Source of the DNA: Alphaproteobacteria bacterium
Lineage (GTDB): Bacteria > Pseudomonadota > Alphaproteobacteria > Caulobacterales > Hyphomonadaceae
NCBI GenBank assembly: GCA_018969425.1
Contig: JAGWYJ010000023.1
Location: 1 to 48,588, forward strand
Direction of reading: 5' to 3'
Length of the DNA stretch: 48,588 bases
In this document: in pieces, positions 41,392 to 48,588 of the stretch
How the letters are laid out: the number at the start of each line of letters is the position of its first letter
How positions within the stretch are numbered: the first letter of the stretch is position 1
Made by a program: the position numbers and the translations under genes
The notes under the pieces: model-generated
The model's database searches: none
Told to the model about the DNA's origin: nothing
What the model saw: the letters and a program-made list of their open reading frames with translations, nothing else

Positions 41392-42410
41392 AGAAGAGCG
41401 GCAAAGCGGCGCTGGATTTCTGCTCCGCACCACCGAAGAACGTTCGTTGTGTTCTGCTTTTCGGAGAAGATCCAGGCCTGATAGAGGCGGCGGCGCTTGG
41501 ACTGGTGGGCCGCTGGATAGCTCAGCTTGACCCAATGAATGTGGTAAGGCTGACTGATGACGAGCTGCGCAAAGACCCTGGCGTACTTGAAGATCACCTG
41601 AGTGCCCGTTCCCTCATGGGAGGAGATAGTCTCGTACGGGTGAAAACGGAGAAAGACACCTCGGCGCGCATTCTGACTGATACGCTGAAGCGAATTGAAG
41701 TCGGCTCCCTGTTCCAGGAAGCGTTCTGCATTGTGGAAGCTGGCGAGCTCCCGAAAACATCGCGGTTAAGGTCAGCTTGGGAGGCCTCGCCTGTCGCATG
41801 TGCGTTGGAACTCAGTCCCGACGATGAAGACGATGTCGTGCGACTTGTCCGTGAAAGTCTTTCTGTCGACTCGATCGACGTGGAAGGAGACGCCCTTGCC
41901 GCATTCTGCTCCGAACTGGCGGGCAACCGTCGACTAGCGCTGTCCGAAATTGAAAAACTGCGCCTCTACGGGATGGGATTAAATCGTTCCGTAAACGTCG
42001 CGGACATCAAGGTCTTTTCATCCGGAGAAATTGCCCGAGGCGCCGACGACGCAGCAGACGCAGCGGTGCTGGGAGATTTGAAATCTGCCGACATCGCGAT
42101 TGACCGCTTTCTCGAGAGCGGCGGATCGCCGATCACCGCGCTCAGAGTTCTGCATCTCAGAATCTTGCGGGCGTCCAACGCCCGATCGACAAGAGTTCAG
42201 AACGGCAGCCGTCTTTGGCCGCCAATAACGGATCAGGACTGGCCAGCCTATTCCGCCGCCCTGAGATACTGGACCCCGGGCAGGATTATTAGGGCCCTTC
42301 AATGCCTCCACACGACAGAAACGGCCTGCAAAGCCGCTGGATCACCGGCAGAGGCGCTTCTTAGGCATGCCCTCCACGAAATCGCAGATCGAGGTCAGCT
42401 GGAGGCCTGA
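41388..42410 (+). CDS. holA: DNA polymerase III delta subunit
   Basis: This 340-residue protein has the HolA layout: a short N-terminus, VLLFGEDPGLIEAAALGLVGRWI, DHLSARSLMGGDSLVRVKT, the middle helical region FCSELAGNRRLALSEIEKLRLY, and FLESGGSPITALRVLHLRILRAS. It loads the sliding clamp as part of the clamp-loader complex. Its ATG overlaps the lptE stop. Its final 16 bp overlap the 3' end of parB, which runs in the opposite direction. Confidence 0.93.
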   Translation: MKKSGKAALDFCSAPPKNVRCVLLFGEDPGLIEAAALGLVGRWIAQLDPMNVVRLTDDELRKDPGVLEDHLSARSLMGGDSLVRVKTEKDTSARILTDTLKRIEVGSLFQEAFCIVEAGELPKTSRLRSAWEASPVACALELSPDDEDDVVRLVRESLSVDSIDVEGDALAAFCSELAGNRRLALSEIEKLRLYGMGLNRSVNVADIKVFSSGEIARGADDAADAAVLGDLKSADIAIDRFLESGGSPITALRVLHLRILRASNARSTRVQNGSRLWPPITDQDWPAYSAALRYWTPGRIIRALQCLHTTETACKAAGSPAEALLRHALHEIADRGQLEA

Positions 42411-43429
42411 GACGCTTCATCCGTCGAAGGATACGATACCTCATCAACGGCTGGAGGCGGGTCTTCATTCTGCAACCCAGGAGAGTCGGTCATGGTCGTC
42501 TCAGACGAGACCGCTCGAGACCGGGTCAGGAGCCGACAGATCTCATCAAGCTGTTCAAGGTGAGAATAGCGAATGCGCACCTCCCCTCCCCGACCGTTAC
42601 TATGCCGAATATCCACGCTGAGTCCGAGGGCCCGTTGCAGGTCCAGCTCAAGCGCGCGTGTGTCGACGTCCTTGTCCTCAGCGGCACGCGACTCTGCAGA
42701 CAGGTCCGATTTTTTGGCTTTCGAGAGCGCCTCCGTCTCGCGAACCGACAAACCGCGCTCGATAACGATCTGGGCGAATTTGGACGCGTCAGACGAGCCG
42801 AGCAGAGCACGCCCGTGGCCAGCCGAAAGTCGACCCTCTCGAACGTGCTCACGAACGTCTTCGGGAAGCTGAAGAAGACGAACGGTGTTGGCGATATGCT
42901 CGCGACTTTTACCGACCTGCGAAGCGACCGAGTCCTGTGTCCGCCCGAACCGGTCCATGAGAGACTTATACGCTTCGGCCTCTTCGATAGAGTTGAGGTC
43001 CGACCGCTGAACATTTTCTATGATCGCGATTTCCAAGACCTCGCGATCATCCAGGTCTCGGACGAGAGCAGGAACCGTCGCCAGTCCTATGCGTCGGGCC
43101 GCTCTCCAGCGTCGCTCTCCTGCGACAATCTCGAACATCTCGGGGGCATTGGGGTCGGGTCTGACAAGGATAGGCTGCAAGACCCCTTTCAATCGGATCG
43201 ACGCCGCCAGGTCTTCCAGATCAGTCTCAAGAAATGTTCGCCTCGGCTGCCGCGGGTTCGCGACAATGCGATCGAGGGGAATTTCCGAGCTTTGGCTCAA
43301 GCGCTCCTCAGCATCCGTTGAAGCAGCAGGAACCTCTCCGCCTTCCGCGACTCCGCGAACAGTGGAGTAGTCCCCCAAAAGCGCGGTAAGACCACGCCCC
43401 AGCCTCATTGGTTTTGCCGACTGATTCAC
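42395..43429 (-). CDS. parB: Chromosome partitioning protein ParB
   Basis: This 344-residue protein has the N-terminal ParA-interacting segment MRLGRGLTALLGD (8-20) and the CTP-binding/clamp motifs GERRWRAARR (104-113) and ENVQRSDLNSIEEAEAY (138-154). Its helix-turn-helix for parS is SVASQVGKSREHIANTVRLLQLP (about 167-189), and the dimerisation domain ends near 304. A further tail of about 39 residues rich in Ser, Thr, Glu, Asp and Pro extends past the usual end and overlaps holA. It loads on parS and spreads as a CTP-dependent clamp. The target array starts about 3.6 kb upstream. Confidence 0.96.
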   Translation of the reverse strand: MNQSAKPMRLGRGLTALLGDYSTVRGVAEGGEVPAASTDAEERLSQSSEIPLDRIVANPRQPRRTFLETDLEDLAASIRLKGVLQPILVRPDPNAPEMFEIVAGERRWRAARRIGLATVPALVRDLDDREVLEIAIIENVQRSDLNSIEEAEAYKSLMDRFGRTQDSVASQVGKSREHIANTVRLLQLPEDVREHVREGRLSAGHGRALLGSSDASKFAQIVIERGLSVRETEALSKAKKSDLSAESRAAEDKDVDTRALELDLQRALGLSVDIRHSNGRGGEVRIRYSHLEQLDEICRLLTRSRAVSSETTMTDSPGLQNEDPPPAVDEVSYPSTDEASQASS

Positions 43430-44253
43430 GCCGCATTCCTCTCGCGTTCACGCTGTAGGAGCTCACTCGCAAGCTTTATGTAAGCTTCACTACCGGAACA
43501 TTTATAATCATAAAGTAAAGCAGGCTTCCCAAAAGAGGGCGCTTCCGACAGACGGACATTCCTCGGTATGACCGTCTGATAGACCTTTGCCCCGAAAAAG
43601 CTTCTGACCTCGCTGGCGACCTGATCAGACAAATTATTGCGCTTGTCGTACATCGTGAGCACCACGCCCTGAATCTCTAACGAAGGGTTAAGAGCCCCGC
43701 GGACGAGATCGACGGTTCGCAGCAACTGACTTAATCCTTCCAGAGCCAGGAACTCGCACTGCAGAGGAACAAGAACGGAATCCGCCGCCGTCATAGCGTT
43801 GATGGTGACCGTCGATAATGACGGCGGACAATCGATAAGAACAATGTCGTACTCTAGCTTCTCTCCATCCGCGGACAGGGCGCCTCCGTCGCGCGAGGCG
43901 CGGCGGAACACATCCAGGGCATCCTTCAGACGAAAGTTCTTCCTGGCGTCCGTATGGAGAAGAGTCTCCACACCCGCCAGATTTTCGTCGCCAGGGACGA
44001 TACCCAACTGCGGCACTTCGGTGGCGATGATCGCCTCGGCGATCGAGGCCTCGCCGACAAGAACGTCATAGCTTGTCTTCTCCCGAAGTCTCGGTTCAAT
44101 TCCGAAACCCGTGGATGCGTTACCCTGAGCGTCGCAATCAATCACCAGAACGCGACGATTCGCAGCCGCAAGAGCGGTTCCAAGATTAATGGCTGTGGTC
44201 GTCTTTCCGACCCCACCCTTCTGATTCGCAATAGCTATGACTCGAAAGCTCAT
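43426..44253 (-). CDS. parA: Chromosome partitioning ATPase ParA
   Basis: This 275-residue Walker-type ATPase has the deviant Walker A KGGVGKTT at 12-19, Walker A' VLVIDCDAQGNAS (35-47), and Walker B-like IVLIDCPPSLSTVTINAM. C-terminal VRLSEAPSFGKPALLYD is the ParA/Soj signature. Its nucleoid-bound gradient moves ParB-parS complexes. The stop overlaps the parB start as ATGA, and its own start overlaps rsmG, so the four genes mnmG-rsmG-parA-parB form one transcription unit. Confidence 0.97.
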   Translation of the reverse strand: MSFRVIAIANQKGGVGKTTTAINLGTALAAANRRVLVIDCDAQGNASTGFGIEPRLREKTSYDVLVGEASIAEAIIATEVPQLGIVPGDENLAGVETLLHTDARKNFRLKDALDVFRRASRDGGALSADGEKLEYDIVLIDCPPSLSTVTINAMTAADSVLVPLQCEFLALEGLSQLLRTVDLVRGALNPSLEIQGVVLTMYDKRNNLSDQVASEVRSFFGAKVYQTVIPRNVRLSEAPSFGKPALLYDYKCSGSEAYIKLASELLQRERERNAA

Positions 44254-44897
44254 CTTGGTCGCCGCGCCAATGAGGAGATCGCCAGAACCTGCCCTTCAGC
44301 ACTACTGAGACTCGGGCGAGCGGACAGGGAGAAGGTCCAAGATTCCCTTGCATCGGTCAATTCGTTTTCGACATCCCGACCCTTGAGAAAGAGACACAAG
44401 CTATCGCCATGAACCAGCCCTTCCGCATAGCCAAGAAGCTTCGACAAGGGCGCAAGGGCCCTGGCGGTTAGGACATCGACGGCGGACAATGACAAGGTCT
44501 CCAGTCGACTTGTCACGACTTCAGCATTCAGACTGAGCTCCCTGACAGCTGCGGCCAGAAACTCTGACTTTCTGGGGCTTTTCTCAATCAGGAAGACGCG
44601 TCGGGAACCAGAAGCCGCCAGCGCCAGAACGATTCCTGGCAGACCCGCCCCCGAACCGATATCCGCGACCCTGAGATCCCCAGGTCGAAAGTCATTTGCC
44701 AGCTGCAGGCAATCCAGAACGTGGCGCCTCCAGATATGGCGATGCTCAGAAGGACCGATCAAATTGATCCGCTGATTCCAATGAAAGAGGAGATCAAGAT
44801 ACGCGGCGATCCGATCTGTGATATCGCTCGACACGTTCAGGAGACGACAGACCTCATCAGGTCCAAACCCATCGATATCTGCAACCAGAGACCTCAC
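44250..44897 (-). CDS. rsmG: 16S rRNA m7G527 methyltransferase RsmG (GidB)
   Basis: This 215-residue protein has the SAM-binding motif [14 protein letters not shown] at 76-89, preceded by [14 protein letters not shown] and [10 protein letters not shown] and followed by [21 protein letters not shown]. These are the RsmG landmarks. It methylates N7 of G527 in 16S rRNA; loss gives low-level streptomycin resistance in other bacteria. It overlaps mnmG and parA by 4 bp on either side. Confidence 0.96.
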
Positions 44898-46753
44898 GCT
44901 ATCGCCCTTGCAGCTCGCTTGAGATGACCGACCAGAGCAGACATCGCTCCGGGGGTCATTCCTTCGATTCGAGCGGCTTGACCCAGAGTCACAGGTCGGA
45001 TCCTTGAGAGCTTGTCTTTGGCTTCTGTCGACAATCCCCCAACTTCGTTGAAATCAAGGTCGCTGGGCAGGAGCATTCCTTCGTCCCGTCGAAACGCGTC
45101 GATGTCAGCCTGCTGTCGATCGATATAGCTCGCATAGGAAGCCTCGATCTCAATCTGTTGGCTTATAAGAGGTGAGACGCCATTTAGTTCAGGCCAGACG
45201 CTCGCAAGTTTGGAATAGTTCACATGAGAGTAGGCAAGCAGCTCGAACGCGCTTCGACGGCGCCCGTCGAGGTTAACCTCGATGCCGTGGACTCTGGCTT
45301 CGTTAGGGGTGAGGACGAGGCTTCGCAGCTGATCTCGCAGAGCGACAATGTCGGTCTTCTTGCGCGCGAAGAACGCAGCGCGCTCAGACCCCACACACCC
45401 CGCCGATAGTCCGAACTCGGTCAAACGCTGATCGGCGTTATCAGCGCGCAGCGTCAACCGATACTCGGCTCGCGAGGTGAACATCCTGTAGGGCTCGCTA
45501 ACGCCGCGGGTGACCAGATCATCAATCATCACGCCGATATAGGCGGTAGACCGATCAATGATCAGAGCGTCACCGCCCCCGGCTCGTCGAGCGGCGTTCA
45601 AGCCTGCCATCAACCCCTGCCCGGCCGCTTCCTCGTATCCGGTGGTGCCGTTGATCTGACCCGCCAGAAAAAGTCCAGGAAGCTTTTTCACCTGGAGGTC
45701 AGGAGAAAGCTCCCTCGGATCGACGTAGTCATACTCGATCGCGTATCCGAAGCGCCGGATGACCACGCGCTCCAGACCCGGAATCAAACGAATGAACTCC
45801 TCCTGAACCGCCTCGGGCAGGGAGGTGGAGATTCCGTTCGGATAGACCGTGTCGTCATCAAGACCCTCCGGCTCGAGAAAGATCTGGTGACGATCGCGAT
45901 CAGCGAACCTGACAACCTTGTCTTCGATAGACGGACAATATCTTGGCCCACGACCTGCGATCGCCCCGGAATAGACAGCCGATCTATGGATGTTGGCGGT
46001 GATCGCTTGGTGAACCGCCGGGGACGTCCAGGTAACGCCGCAAGCGACCTGGGGGGTGGTGATCGCTGGGGTCAGGAAGGAGAAGGGGACAGGGTCCTCG
46101 TCTGCAGCCTGCATCTCTAGGCCCGCCCAATCAATCGACTTCCCATCGAGCCGAGCAGGCGTTCCGGTCTTGAGCCGGCCCATGGACAAGCCAAGTCCGT
46201 ACAGACGTCCCGACAAACCTAACACCGGGGCCTCGCCGGCTCGACCTGCGGGGATGCGCTTATCGCCGATGTGAATGACGCCCTTCAAAAAGGTGCCCGT
46301 GGTGAGGACCACGGCGGAGCAACGCCATAGGCGGCCAGACGCCCCGATCACTCCGGCGACGCTCCCGTTCTCAACCAATAGATCTTCAATGCTGTCCTCG
46401 ATGATTTCGAGGCCCGCCACACGGGTCAGAATATCCTGAACCGCCTCGCGATAGAGACGTCGGTCCGCCTGGGTTCGAGGCCCCCTCACCGCCGGTCCGC
46501 GGGACCTATTCAACATCCTGAATTGAATGCCAGCCCGGTCGGCCGCCACCCCCATGACTCCATCGAGAGCATCGACTTCACGGACCAGGTGCCCCTTCCC
46601 CAGCCCGCCGATCGCCGGATTGCAGGACATCTCCCCGATTGTGGACGCTTTGTGAGTGATCAGCGCCGTTCGCGCACCCATACGCGCAGCCGCCGCGGCG
46701 GCCTCAGTGCCGGCGTGCCCCCCGCCTACGACAACGACATCAAATACGCTCAT
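44894..46753 (-). CDS. mnmG: tRNA uridine-5-carboxymethylaminomethyl modification enzyme MnmG (GidA)
   Basis: This 619-residue FAD protein has the Rossmann motif [22 protein letters not shown] (7-28), then [34 protein letters not shown], the FAD-binding [21 protein letters not shown], and the MnmE-interacting helical C-terminus. With MnmE it installs cmnm5U at the wobble position of tRNAs. Upstream, where mnmE is often found in alphaproteobacteria, this window has a parS array instead. It is the first gene of the mnmG-rsmG-parA-parB unit. Confidence 0.97.
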
Positions 46754-46994
46754 ACGACGACACTTTCCGAGAAAGCAGTTATCTCGATGCTCTAATCGAG
46801 GGCGGGTCCTGCGTCGAGATCAAGCCCTCGCCGGAAACACGGCCGGCGATCGATCTTCACACCAGCCGACCCGAAGTATCGATCTCTGTCACCCTGAATC
46901 GAAGTCTCATGACAACAGGCCTGGCCCCGATCGGCCGCGGCCCCCCCGCAAAATCATCCAGGGCCGCTGACGGCGATACTTATGGAGAAGACCC
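46754..46994. promoter_or_regulatory. Upstream region of the mnmG operon
   Basis: This 241-bp non-coding stretch separates mnmG from the first parS-associated motif and must contain the promoter of mnmG-rsmG-parA-parB. I could not pick out a clear promoter. It includes a C7 run near 46945 and a GAATC at about 46896. Confidence 0.4.
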
Positions 46995-47001
46995 GAATCG
47001 C

Positions 47002-47017
47002 TGTTTCACGTGAAACA
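47002..47017. promoter_or_regulatory. parS site 1
   Basis: Perfect 16-bp ParB box. GAATC (46995-46999) lies exactly 2 bp before it. This is the site nearest the mnmG start (249 bp). Confidence 0.95.
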
Positions 47018-47113
47018 TTTCGAGGCGGTGAGCAGCTCATGGGTAAGTCGAACTGAAGACGGACACAAAGCGCAGCCTGCAGACGGATCGATTGCCAGCT
47101 GACGCAGAGTCAA

Positions 47114-47129
47114 TGTTTCACGTGAAACA
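47114..47129. promoter_or_regulatory. parS site 2
   Basis: Perfect ParB box with GAGTC (47107-47111) 2 bp before it and the inverted repeat TGAC-N5-GTCA at 47100-47112. First copy of the tandem-duplicated unit. Confidence 0.95.
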
Positions 47130-47321
47130 ATTGGGCCGCAGCTAGCAGCGGCGCTTCCGCCACGCAACAAGCCATCTAATCGTCCGATATTACGCCAAAT
47201 CGCCAAATGGAGCGCGCGGCACGCCTTATGCCTTGTGCGTCCTGATCATGAGCGGGTTGCCGAACCAAGGACCAAAAGGCTTGGCCGGGAAAATGAGGAA
47301 CAAGGGCTTACCCGGAGTCAA

Positions 47322-47337
47322 TGTTTCACGTGAAACA
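47322..47337. promoter_or_regulatory. parS site 3
   Basis: Perfect ParB box with GAGTC (47315-47319) 2 bp before it; the TGAC half is changed to TTAC. Second copy of the tandem-duplicated unit. Confidence 0.95.
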
Positions 47338-47522
47338 ATTGAGGCGCGGCTAGCAGCGCAATTCCCCTAGGAAACAAGACCTTTAATGATCCGATATCGC
47401 GCCAAATCCGAAAATGTGGCGCAAAAAATGACGTGTGGGGCACGATCATGAATGGCTCGCCACTCAGAGAAGCAAAAGTCTTGGCCGGCCAAATCTTGGG
47501 AAGGGGGGTCACGTTCAGTCAA

Positions 47523-47538
47523 TGTTTCACGTGAAACA
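47523..47538. promoter_or_regulatory. parS site 4
   Basis: Perfect ParB box. The left flank is CAGTC-AA, one base away from the GANTC seen at sites 2 and 3. Confidence 0.95.
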
Positions 47539-47616
47539 ATCTCGTAGCTGGACGACCGCCGAAAAGCATGCCGCCGGCGACCTAAAAGCCGCCACCCCCC
47601 GCGCCAAGAAAGGCGA

Positions 47617-47632
47617 TGTTTCACGTGAAACA
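47617..47632. promoter_or_regulatory. parS site 5
   Basis: Perfect ParB box without the GANTC flank. Confidence 0.95.
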
Positions 47633-47728
47633 ATCTGCGCGAGGATCGCCTCGGGGCTGGAGGCCGCGCGGAGGCGTAAGAAAAAAGCATCCAAGCAGGG
47701 AGCCGAGCACAGGCGCACGCACAATCAT

Positions 47729-47744
47729 TGTTTCACGTGAAACA
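47729..47744. promoter_or_regulatory. parS site 6
   Basis: Perfect ParB box; left flank CAATC-AT is one mismatch from GANTC-N2. Confidence 0.95.
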
Positions 47745-47860
47745 TTCGCGCCAAAGCAAGGCTCCCCGCTAAAGCCTACGCCAGCAATCCCTTTTAATTC
47801 TGGGGACCACGGCAAAGACCACACTGGCGACGAGCGATGCAAGCTACATTCTCGGACCAT

Positions 47861-47876
47861 TGTTTCACGTGAAACA
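47861..47876. promoter_or_regulatory. parS site 7
   Basis: Perfect ParB box without a matching GANTC flank (GGACC-AT). Confidence 0.95.
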
Positions 47877-47967
47877 TCGCACGCAACTCTCAGATCATGA
47901 CCCCTGGGTTGATTGACTCCAACAGACCAGGCAACGCCGCTGGGGCGCCTCAACGGAGTGGAGACCA

Positions 47968-47983
47968 TGTTTCACGTGAAACA
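47968..47983. promoter_or_regulatory. parS site 8
   Basis: Perfect ParB box; left flank GAGAC-CA is one mismatch from GANTC-N2. Confidence 0.95.
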
Positions 47984-48079
47984 ATTCGTTCAAGCGCAAA
48001 CTGACCCCAGCCATAAAGTCTCAAGTTCAAAGACGATCACCCCGAGTGGGGGGGCGGGCGCAAATTGACACTGAGTCAA

Positions 48080-48095
48080 TGTTTCACGTGAAACA
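48080..48095. promoter_or_regulatory. parS site 9
   Basis: Perfect ParB box with GAGTC (48073-48077) 2 bp before it and TGAC-N5-GTCA at 48066-48078. Confidence 0.95.
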
Positions 48096-48172
48096 ATCCG
48101 ACGCCGCCCAAGCGCCAAATAGAAGCTCAGCCTCATCTCATGGGCTGTCAAAGCTCACCTCTTAGACACTCC

Positions 48173-48188
48173 GGTTTCAGGTGAAACA
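48173..48188. promoter_or_regulatory. parS site 10 (degenerate)
   Basis: GGTTTCAGGTGAAACA matches 14 of 16 positions, with changes at the first base and at the centre (C to G), which breaks the palindrome. It may bind ParB weakly or be a decayed copy. Confidence 0.6.
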
Positions 48189-48259
48189 GTCCAGGCCTGG
48201 CAGTAGGCGAGGGCCCTAATCACCAAGGAAAAGGCAATTGCCGGGTGACCTAGAGTCAA

Positions 48260-48275
48260 TGTTTCACGTGAAACA
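48260..48275. promoter_or_regulatory. parS site 11
   Basis: Perfect ParB box with GAGTC (48253-48257) 2 bp before it and TGAC-N5-GTCA at 48246-48258. Confidence 0.95.
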
Positions 48276-48448
48276 ATCACCGCGCTCCGACGGGGCCCGT
48301 TTGGAACCGTAGAGCATCAGCAAGATTTAAAGGGGCGTGATGGTCAGCTCTTACCCTCCGGAGAAAGGTGGGTAGCCCAGCGAACCCAATTGATACAAGG
48401 GAAGGCGCCCTGCCAGGAGGCAAGAGCGATGGCAGGGCTAGAGCAAAA

Positions 48449-48464
48449 TGTTTCACGTGAAACA
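48449..48464. promoter_or_regulatory. parS site 12
   Basis: Perfect ParB box with A-rich left flank and no GANTC. The palindrome extends outward slightly (AATG...CATT). Confidence 0.95.
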
Positions 48465-48550
48465 TTTCTGGGCGATCCGAGTCCAGAACCTTCAGAACAG
48501 TGGGGGATTTAAGAAAGTCGAGACGAGGCGACAGATCGACCGCCTGCCCT

Positions 48551-48588
48551 GCACGAAGGAATGTTTCACGTGAAACATTCCTTCGTGC
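48551..48588. repeat. 38-bp perfect palindrome at the window end
   Basis: The two 19-bp arms are exact reverse complements centred on parS site 13, and the sequence stops exactly where the right arm ends. It may be a real extended palindrome or an assembly fold-back. Confidence 0.85.
48562..48577. promoter_or_regulatory. parS site 13
   Basis: Perfect ParB box at the centre of a 38-bp perfect palindrome (48551-48588) that ends at the window edge. Confidence 0.93.

Follow-up and report, generated by a model that had tools for sequence, protein, structure and literature searches.

Gene content and the parS array

The window, that is, the whole stretch of 48,588 bp analysed here, makes up the whole of contig C11 of genome G000 and carries 12 perfect copies of the parS 16-mer TGTTTCACGTGAAACA together with one degenerate copy. 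The array is followed by the gene order mnmG-rsmG-parA-parB, directed away from it, with parA 2.7 kb from the parS copies.

42395..43429, minus strand: parB, 344 aa (NCBIfam TIGR00180, 196 bits, cut-off 58)
43426..44253, minus strand: parA, 275 aa (assigned by position and ParA-type ATPase matches)
44250..44897, minus strand: rsmG (gidB) (TIGR00138, over cut-off)
44894..46753, minus strand: mnmG (gidA) (TIGR00136, over cut-off); the gene next to the array, directed away from it
47002..48577, no strand: parS array, 12 x TGTTTCACGTGAAACA
47002, 47114, 47322, 47523, 47617, 47729: parS starts, sites 1-6
47861, 47968, 48080, 48260, 48449, 48562: parS starts, remaining perfect copies
48173..48188, no strand: degenerate parS GGTTTCAGGTGAAACA, numbered as site 10 in an earlier, sequence-only reading of this DNA
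48551..48588: 38-bp perfect palindrome around the last parS, at which contig C11 ends

The profile matches of parA were to RepA (106 bits) and ParA_partition (105 bits), none of them above a curated cut-off. The features of a chromosomal ParABS centromere are present, with multiple parS consensus 16-mers near parAB and a ParB family gene alongside, and the array is the chromosome's predicted ParB loading centre, having 12 intact parS in ~1.6 kb.

Elsewhere in the genome, the sole other 14-mer match to parS was found on contig C60, inside the same 38-bp palindrome. Contig C60 opens with the identical 38 bp and continues with mnmE on the minus strand, beyond which lie rho, hemE and a ppsR-like gene. 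Because the end of C11 and the start of C60 are the same palindrome, the most likely place for the array is the mnmE-mnmG interval, a gap of ~2.06 kb, the adjacency of the two contigs being deduced from the shared sequence rather than assembled. The Caulobacter origin adjoins hemE; if that layout applies here, the array would lie ~5-7 kb from the origin.

Three further observations concern this region. The assembly of the sister species G002 also breaks inside its parS array, and since the contigs of both species do so, short-read assemblies may under-count parS arrays. ParB ends in a C-terminal tail of ~30 residues, rich in acidic residues and in S, T and P, that is common to G000 and G002 only and missing in nine other ParBs of the genus (11 ParBs aligned); its link to the box described below is a correlation only. 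Finally, a GAATC within TGAATC(G/A)AAGTC (46893-46905), ~145 bp upstream of mnmG, recurs in G002 about as far from the gene and could be part of an mnmG promoter.

GANTC motifs beside parS

The sequence-only reading had pointed to GANTC, the CcrM-type methylation motif, exactly 2 bp before the TGTTTCACGTGAAACA core at five sites. All five are exact (46995, 47107, 47315, 48073 and 48253; 5 of 12 perfect sites), and the near misses are also as claimed (CAGTC at site 4, CAATC at site 6 and GAGAC at site 8). GANTC is in fact rarer than the chance rate of 1 in 256 per position given there, as the 128 GANTC in the window give p ~0.0026 per position. With the sites taken as independent, the naive probability of at least 5 of 12 is 1e-10, or 5e-9 over 24 flanks. 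These values are too strong because sites 2, 3, 9 and 11 share one longer element and hence are not independent; with two origins among 8 units (an assumed number) and 26 choices of gap and side, P is ~0.005 and the excess is weak.

Only one GANTC site lies outside this shared-element family:

46995..47017, plus strand: site 1, GAATC-GC-parS; has GANTC but not the wider box, matching 3 of 9 box positions

Site 1 had been put forward as a sign that the arrangement itself may be selected. It does have GAATC and other spacer bases, but for the 7 intact sites outside the family, at the GANTC density of the window, a lone coincidence has a chance of 7 x 0.0026, or ~2%.

An accessory box adjoins five parS sites

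A wider element, T(G)AC-N3-(G)AGTCAA-[parS]-AT, is common to sites 2, 3, 4, 9 and 11 and to the sister species, and it is one-directional.

47100..47131, plus strand: site 2, box TGACGCAGAGTCAA + parS + AT; 32-mer identical in G002
47308..47339, plus strand: site 3, box TTACCCGGAGTCAA + parS + AT
47509..47540, plus strand: site 4, box TCACGTTCAGTCAA + parS + AT; box kept, GANTC lost
48066..48097, plus strand: site 9, box TGACACTGAGTCAA + parS + AT; with the preceding base, a perfect TTGAC-N5-GTCAA
48246..48277, plus strand: site 11, box TGACCTAGAGTCAA + parS + AT

Conservation was assessed by aligning these five sites with sister site S2 and comparing 12 pairs, those within sites 2-4 being omitted. 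Columns -14, -12, -11, -6 to -1, +1 and +2 matched in 12/12 pairs, column -7 (the G of GANTC) in 9/12, and columns -13 and +3 in 6/12. Identity over the same pairs was 0.36 in the spacer (-10 to -8), 0.286 in the left and 0.287 in the right outside flank, and it fell to background sharply beyond -14 and +2. Because a shared AGTCAA was the criterion by which the family was assembled, the agreement at -6 to -1 follows in part from the choice itself; T-14, A-12, C-11, +1 and +2 played no role in it. When window sites 2, 9 and 11 were taken as a block with S2, 11/14 columns were identical, compared with a mean of 0.28 and a maximum of 4 identical columns in random 14-blocks drawn from the flanks (200,000 draws).

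Scored over nine fixed positions, all five boxed sites reach 9, a score found nowhere else on the two strands of the window; the remaining parS flanks score 2-6 (seven left flanks) and 1-5 (11 tested right flanks). Exact TGAC-N3-GAGTCAA has 3 copies in the 3.25-Mb genome, all three abutting parS, and TGAC-N5-GTCA has 4 copies in the window vs 0.72 expected. The fourth of these (44979-44991) was set aside as mnmG coding sequence with no perfect parS adjoining; it is also found at the homologous place in G002. All five window boxes and the sister's two lie on the mnmG side of parS; 5/12 window and 2/4 sister sites thus pair the ParB site with another conserved element whose distance and orientation are fixed. 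The box is absent from 7/12 window sites and is therefore not required for every parS. AT at +1/+2 is also present at sites 5 and 8, which are without a box.

Allowing one mismatch, the box had 13 matches in the genome vs 24 for a reversed control, and thus there is no wider target set in the genome. A role as the site of a global regulator was rejected, as exact genome matches lie solely at parS (3/3). In the portions of the literature available to our search, no published TGAC-N5-GTCA or TTGAC-N5-GTCAA string was found.

Distribution among relatives

MnmG of the sister species G002 is 94% identical to that of the window (75-77% for the 11 other same-genus MnmG found), and the two mnmG genes are identical at 185/336 fourfold sites (~55%). 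G002 has four parS upstream of mnmG at a contig edge. Its contig C4 starts 67 bases ahead of the first of the listed parS; of an mnmE-like frame, no more than the initial 43 residues were detected, at the edge of a different contig. Two of the four sites, in near-identical repeats, read TGACGCAGAGTCAA-parS-AT, 32 bases that equal window site 2, and a 189-bp unit with two parS is duplicated almost identically. The other two are without GANTC, S3 keeping TGAC and CAA and S1 not keeping TGAC.

Beyond this pair the arrangement was rare. Among 61 relatives including the window's own genome, GANTC-N2-parS was found in G000 and G002 only, the 60 relatives other than G000 having 119 perfect parS (summed by hand). 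AGTCAA-parS in 105 family genomes was likewise confined to G000 (5) and G002 (2). Of 14 same-genus genomes, 13 have 2-7 parS, and no parS was found in the remaining one. Retention of parS in close relatives without the spacing, which the sequence-only reading had itself named as evidence against its proposal, was seen in 12 of these 13 genomes with parS. In the wider class (685 parS sites and 1370 flanks in 384 genomes other than G000), 3/1370 flanks had GANTC-N2-parS vs 3.6 expected, and the pairing was rejected as a class-wide feature, being at chance level. In 80 named loci around mnmG it was seen at 1/298 flanks of 149 parS sites.

Enrichment of GANTC on the mnmG side was also considered, using gaps 0-15 at the 54 parS sites between mnmE and mnmG in the named loci and an expectation from local density. 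The result (9 proximal vs 5 distal, ~4 expected per side) was not convincing, and none of the 54 sites had GANTC at gap 2 on the proximal side.

One distant genome stands closer to the window. In G492, from another family of the class, the mnmE-mnmG parS carries TGAC-ATA-GAATCAA directly on its mnmG flank (perfect parS at L222:7765; loci L194/L222), matching the window in layout and side. Compared with the window, GANTC has another free base there but unchanged G, A, T and C, a pattern that selection on GANTC would give, read here from one site picked from three chance-level GANTC matches. A weaker likeness, ACAGTCAA-parS with a score of 6/9, was found in G058 (L088). A GANTCAA-parS on viral contig L223 was attributed to chance, as it lies inside open reading frames and is without TGAC. 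Four Rhizobiales loci (L048, L052, L056 and L066) have TTGACTC, which is GAGTCAA on the opposite strand, 3-5 bases after the parS between mnmE and mnmG; it is on the mnmG side, but the spacing differs from that of the window.

The class sample also held genomes with unusual parS numbers. G358 (loci L208, L213 and L218) has 78 perfect TGTTTCACGTGAAACA in a 1.8-Mb genome, vs the usual 0-4, in many small clusters on many contigs and often 35-120 bp apart. G339 and G497 have 18 perfect parS each, scattered, and G330 has 13.

CcrM and the status of GANTC

The ccrM gene on which a methylation role would depend was found as a CcrM homologue of 388 aa at L086:1345-2511. It matches Pfam N6_N4_Mtase (E 3e-62; the single such gene found in the genome) and, over nearly its whole length, the CcrMI structure 6pbd (E 1e-177). 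Against the NCBIfam CcrM model, a Caulobacter model, it scores 613 bits, below the curated cut-off of 830, and on these matches it is taken as a CcrM homologue.

Whether the arrangement itself is selected, as had been suggested, has a divided answer. The fixed arrangement is real and is kept at two G002 sites, and therefore something has been selected or inherited. GANTC as the selected unit is not supported: its G is lost at site 4, and T-14, A-12, C-11, +1 and +2 are invariant outside it, so that GANTC fails as the conserved unit in an alignment that is itself partly ascertained, the family having been chosen by AGTCAA. Judged from the aligned sites, GANTC is what appears where GA happens to precede GTC inside the box.

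The accompanying statement that no parS-GANTC pairing had been described was too strong, because papers on repABC and on the C. crescentus parS locus exist. In the accessible parts of these sources, GANTC near parS is discussed for repABC replicons (PMC9040568, PMC11514494) and GANTCs at the C. crescentus parS locus served as a methylation control (PMC5172544). A description of a fixed GANTC-parS pairing or of the box was not found in the portions of the literature that the search covered.

Interpretation

We give about an even chance to the reading that this is a ParB centromere array, partly duplicated, in which an accessory box, serving a second protein or an extended ParB contact, makes five of the sites composite. 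The array would have grown at least partly by tandem duplication in the lineage of the two species. In its composite sites the box adjoins parS on the side of mnmG, and AT stands on the opposite side. The box is an imperfect inverted repeat, TGAC-N5-GTCA, as operators of dimeric proteins are. Given this operator-like form, either a second protein that binds DNA or a further contact made by the ParB of this lineage would most likely sit there, 1.5 turns from the parS dyad. Occupancy would give the symmetric parS a direction, or would modulate ParB loading or clamp sliding.

The main rival is duplication hitchhiking, by which an ancestral boxed parS unit was copied along the array, perhaps with short gene conversion, and the box is without function; we regard this as possible though rather doubtful. 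Copying is visible in the upstream spacers. Sites 3 and 4 have homologous spacers (67% over 165 bp), and a match of 23 bp next to parS, box included, is common to sites 2 and 11; the spacer of site 9 has no match to any other (all at E <= 0.05). The near-identical 189-bp two-parS duplication in G002 and the same orientation of all boxes also agree with copying. With sites 2-4 possibly paralogous and the 23-bp match between sites 2 and 11, few copies count as independent. A copied tract should, however, be contiguous, and here a three-base spacer at background separates two halves that are both fixed, with sharp ends at -14/+2. Such a conserved-variable-conserved pattern with sharp edges is typical of a binding site and not of copied sequence. 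The boxed 32-mer is moreover identical in the sister despite a near-neutral divergence of 45% at mnmG fourfold sites, which supports an accessory box; its presence in two species only, 2/105 family genomes, weighs against one. On balance, we infer selection behind this conservation and a putative protein bound at the box.

We do not favour a CcrM-dependent switch and consider it unlikely. In that case GANTC methylation would alter the binding of ParB or a competitor, and hemimethylation after replication would tie segregation to the cell cycle. Such a switch would be in keeping with the CcrM homologue, with GANTC at the same gap in 5/12 window sites and two sister sites, with the different spacer bases of the site 1 GANTC, with the whole box carrying GAATC for GAGTC on the same side in the distant G492, and with the repABC precedents. 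Against these points, the columns outside GANTC are equally conserved and the G is lost at site 4, GANTC at gap 2 is missing in 7/12 window and 2/4 sister sites, and elsewhere it occurs at chance frequency in the flanks of the class and the named loci. Methyl groups at -6 and -4 would also fall outside the helix-turn-helix contacts known from structures of ParB on parS.

The box towards mnmG begins TTGACTC, which is -35-like, and it could for this reason be taken as a promoter element of the mnmG-rsmG-parA-parB operon, possibly of GcrA/CcrM type. TTGACT does resemble TTGACA and faces mnmG, and TTGACTC a few bases after parS towards mnmG recurs in the Rhizobium loci L052, L056 and L066 and also in L048. 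Nevertheless, a search limited to the sigma-70 type found no such promoter in 46754-48588 (0 vs 0.7 in shuffles), on which the box as a sigma-70 promoter was rejected; five promoters up to ~1.5 kb upstream would be odd, and the far-end TGAC would go unexplained. We regard this reading as very improbable.

A directional, bipartite element with a free spacer and an imperfect palindrome fits a protein site better than a methylation mark, and we therefore prefer the accessory box. Methylation could still modulate it. In one such combination, which we think quite improbable, the box serves a second protein and is toggled by CcrM methylation of the inner GANTC as a replication-sensitive switch of ParB direction or loading, with G492 as an independent or ancient instance.

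In the usual description of ParB loading, the symmetric 16-bp parS is the whole signal. The locus is a variant chromosomal parS centromere with a putative accessory box, seen in two species. If the interpretation is true, a conserved, one-sided box at a fixed distance would mean that the centromere is read or oriented by more than ParB. The methylation reading is corrected accordingly, with GANTC lying inside the element and yet not being what the alignment holds constant.

Comparison with known systems

The locus resembles the ParABS systems of Caulobacter crescentus and Hyphomonas neptunium in its parS consensus, its parAB operon beside mnmG/rsmG and the nearby mnmE, rho and hemE. The available table of PMC7022226 gives 5 parS sites for C. 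crescentus and 2 for H. neptunium. Unlike such alphaproteobacterial centromeres, the window has 12 intact sites in ~1.6 kb, five of them with a conserved accessory box.

For the repABC replicons pAMI4 and Agrobacterium Ch2, the available text of PMC9040568 and PMC11514494 reports GANTC in the parS region and suggests a partition role. There, in contrast to the window, GANTC lies ~500 bp from parS or in a repABC promoter region nearer parS, and no fixed 2-bp GANTC-parS pairing is described in those portions.

In Vibrio cholerae chromosome II, parS lies within rctA, a region also bound by RctB, according to the part of PMC3141006 available. The likeness would be a second DNA-binding protein that acts beside a centromere site and links replication to segregation. 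The class and the type of chromosome differ, and an RctB-like partner was not identified in the window genome.

As regards density, 22 parS sites are listed for Myxococcus xanthus in the same available table (PMC7022226). The window is similar in having many parS copies as one predicted ParB loading region, a likeness of site number. Unlike M. xanthus, it has a flank box, the alphaproteobacterial parS and a smaller region.

The parS of P1 is composite, with A-boxes, B-boxes and an IHF site, and has a second conserved element beside the ParB box. The B-box and IHF are mentioned in the available part of a review (PMC5016525). The window array differs in being chromosomal and arrayed and in a box sequence unrelated to anything tested, for which a contact partner (ParB or IHF) would be named by analogy. 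Like P1 parS, it has a second conserved element adjoining the ParB site.
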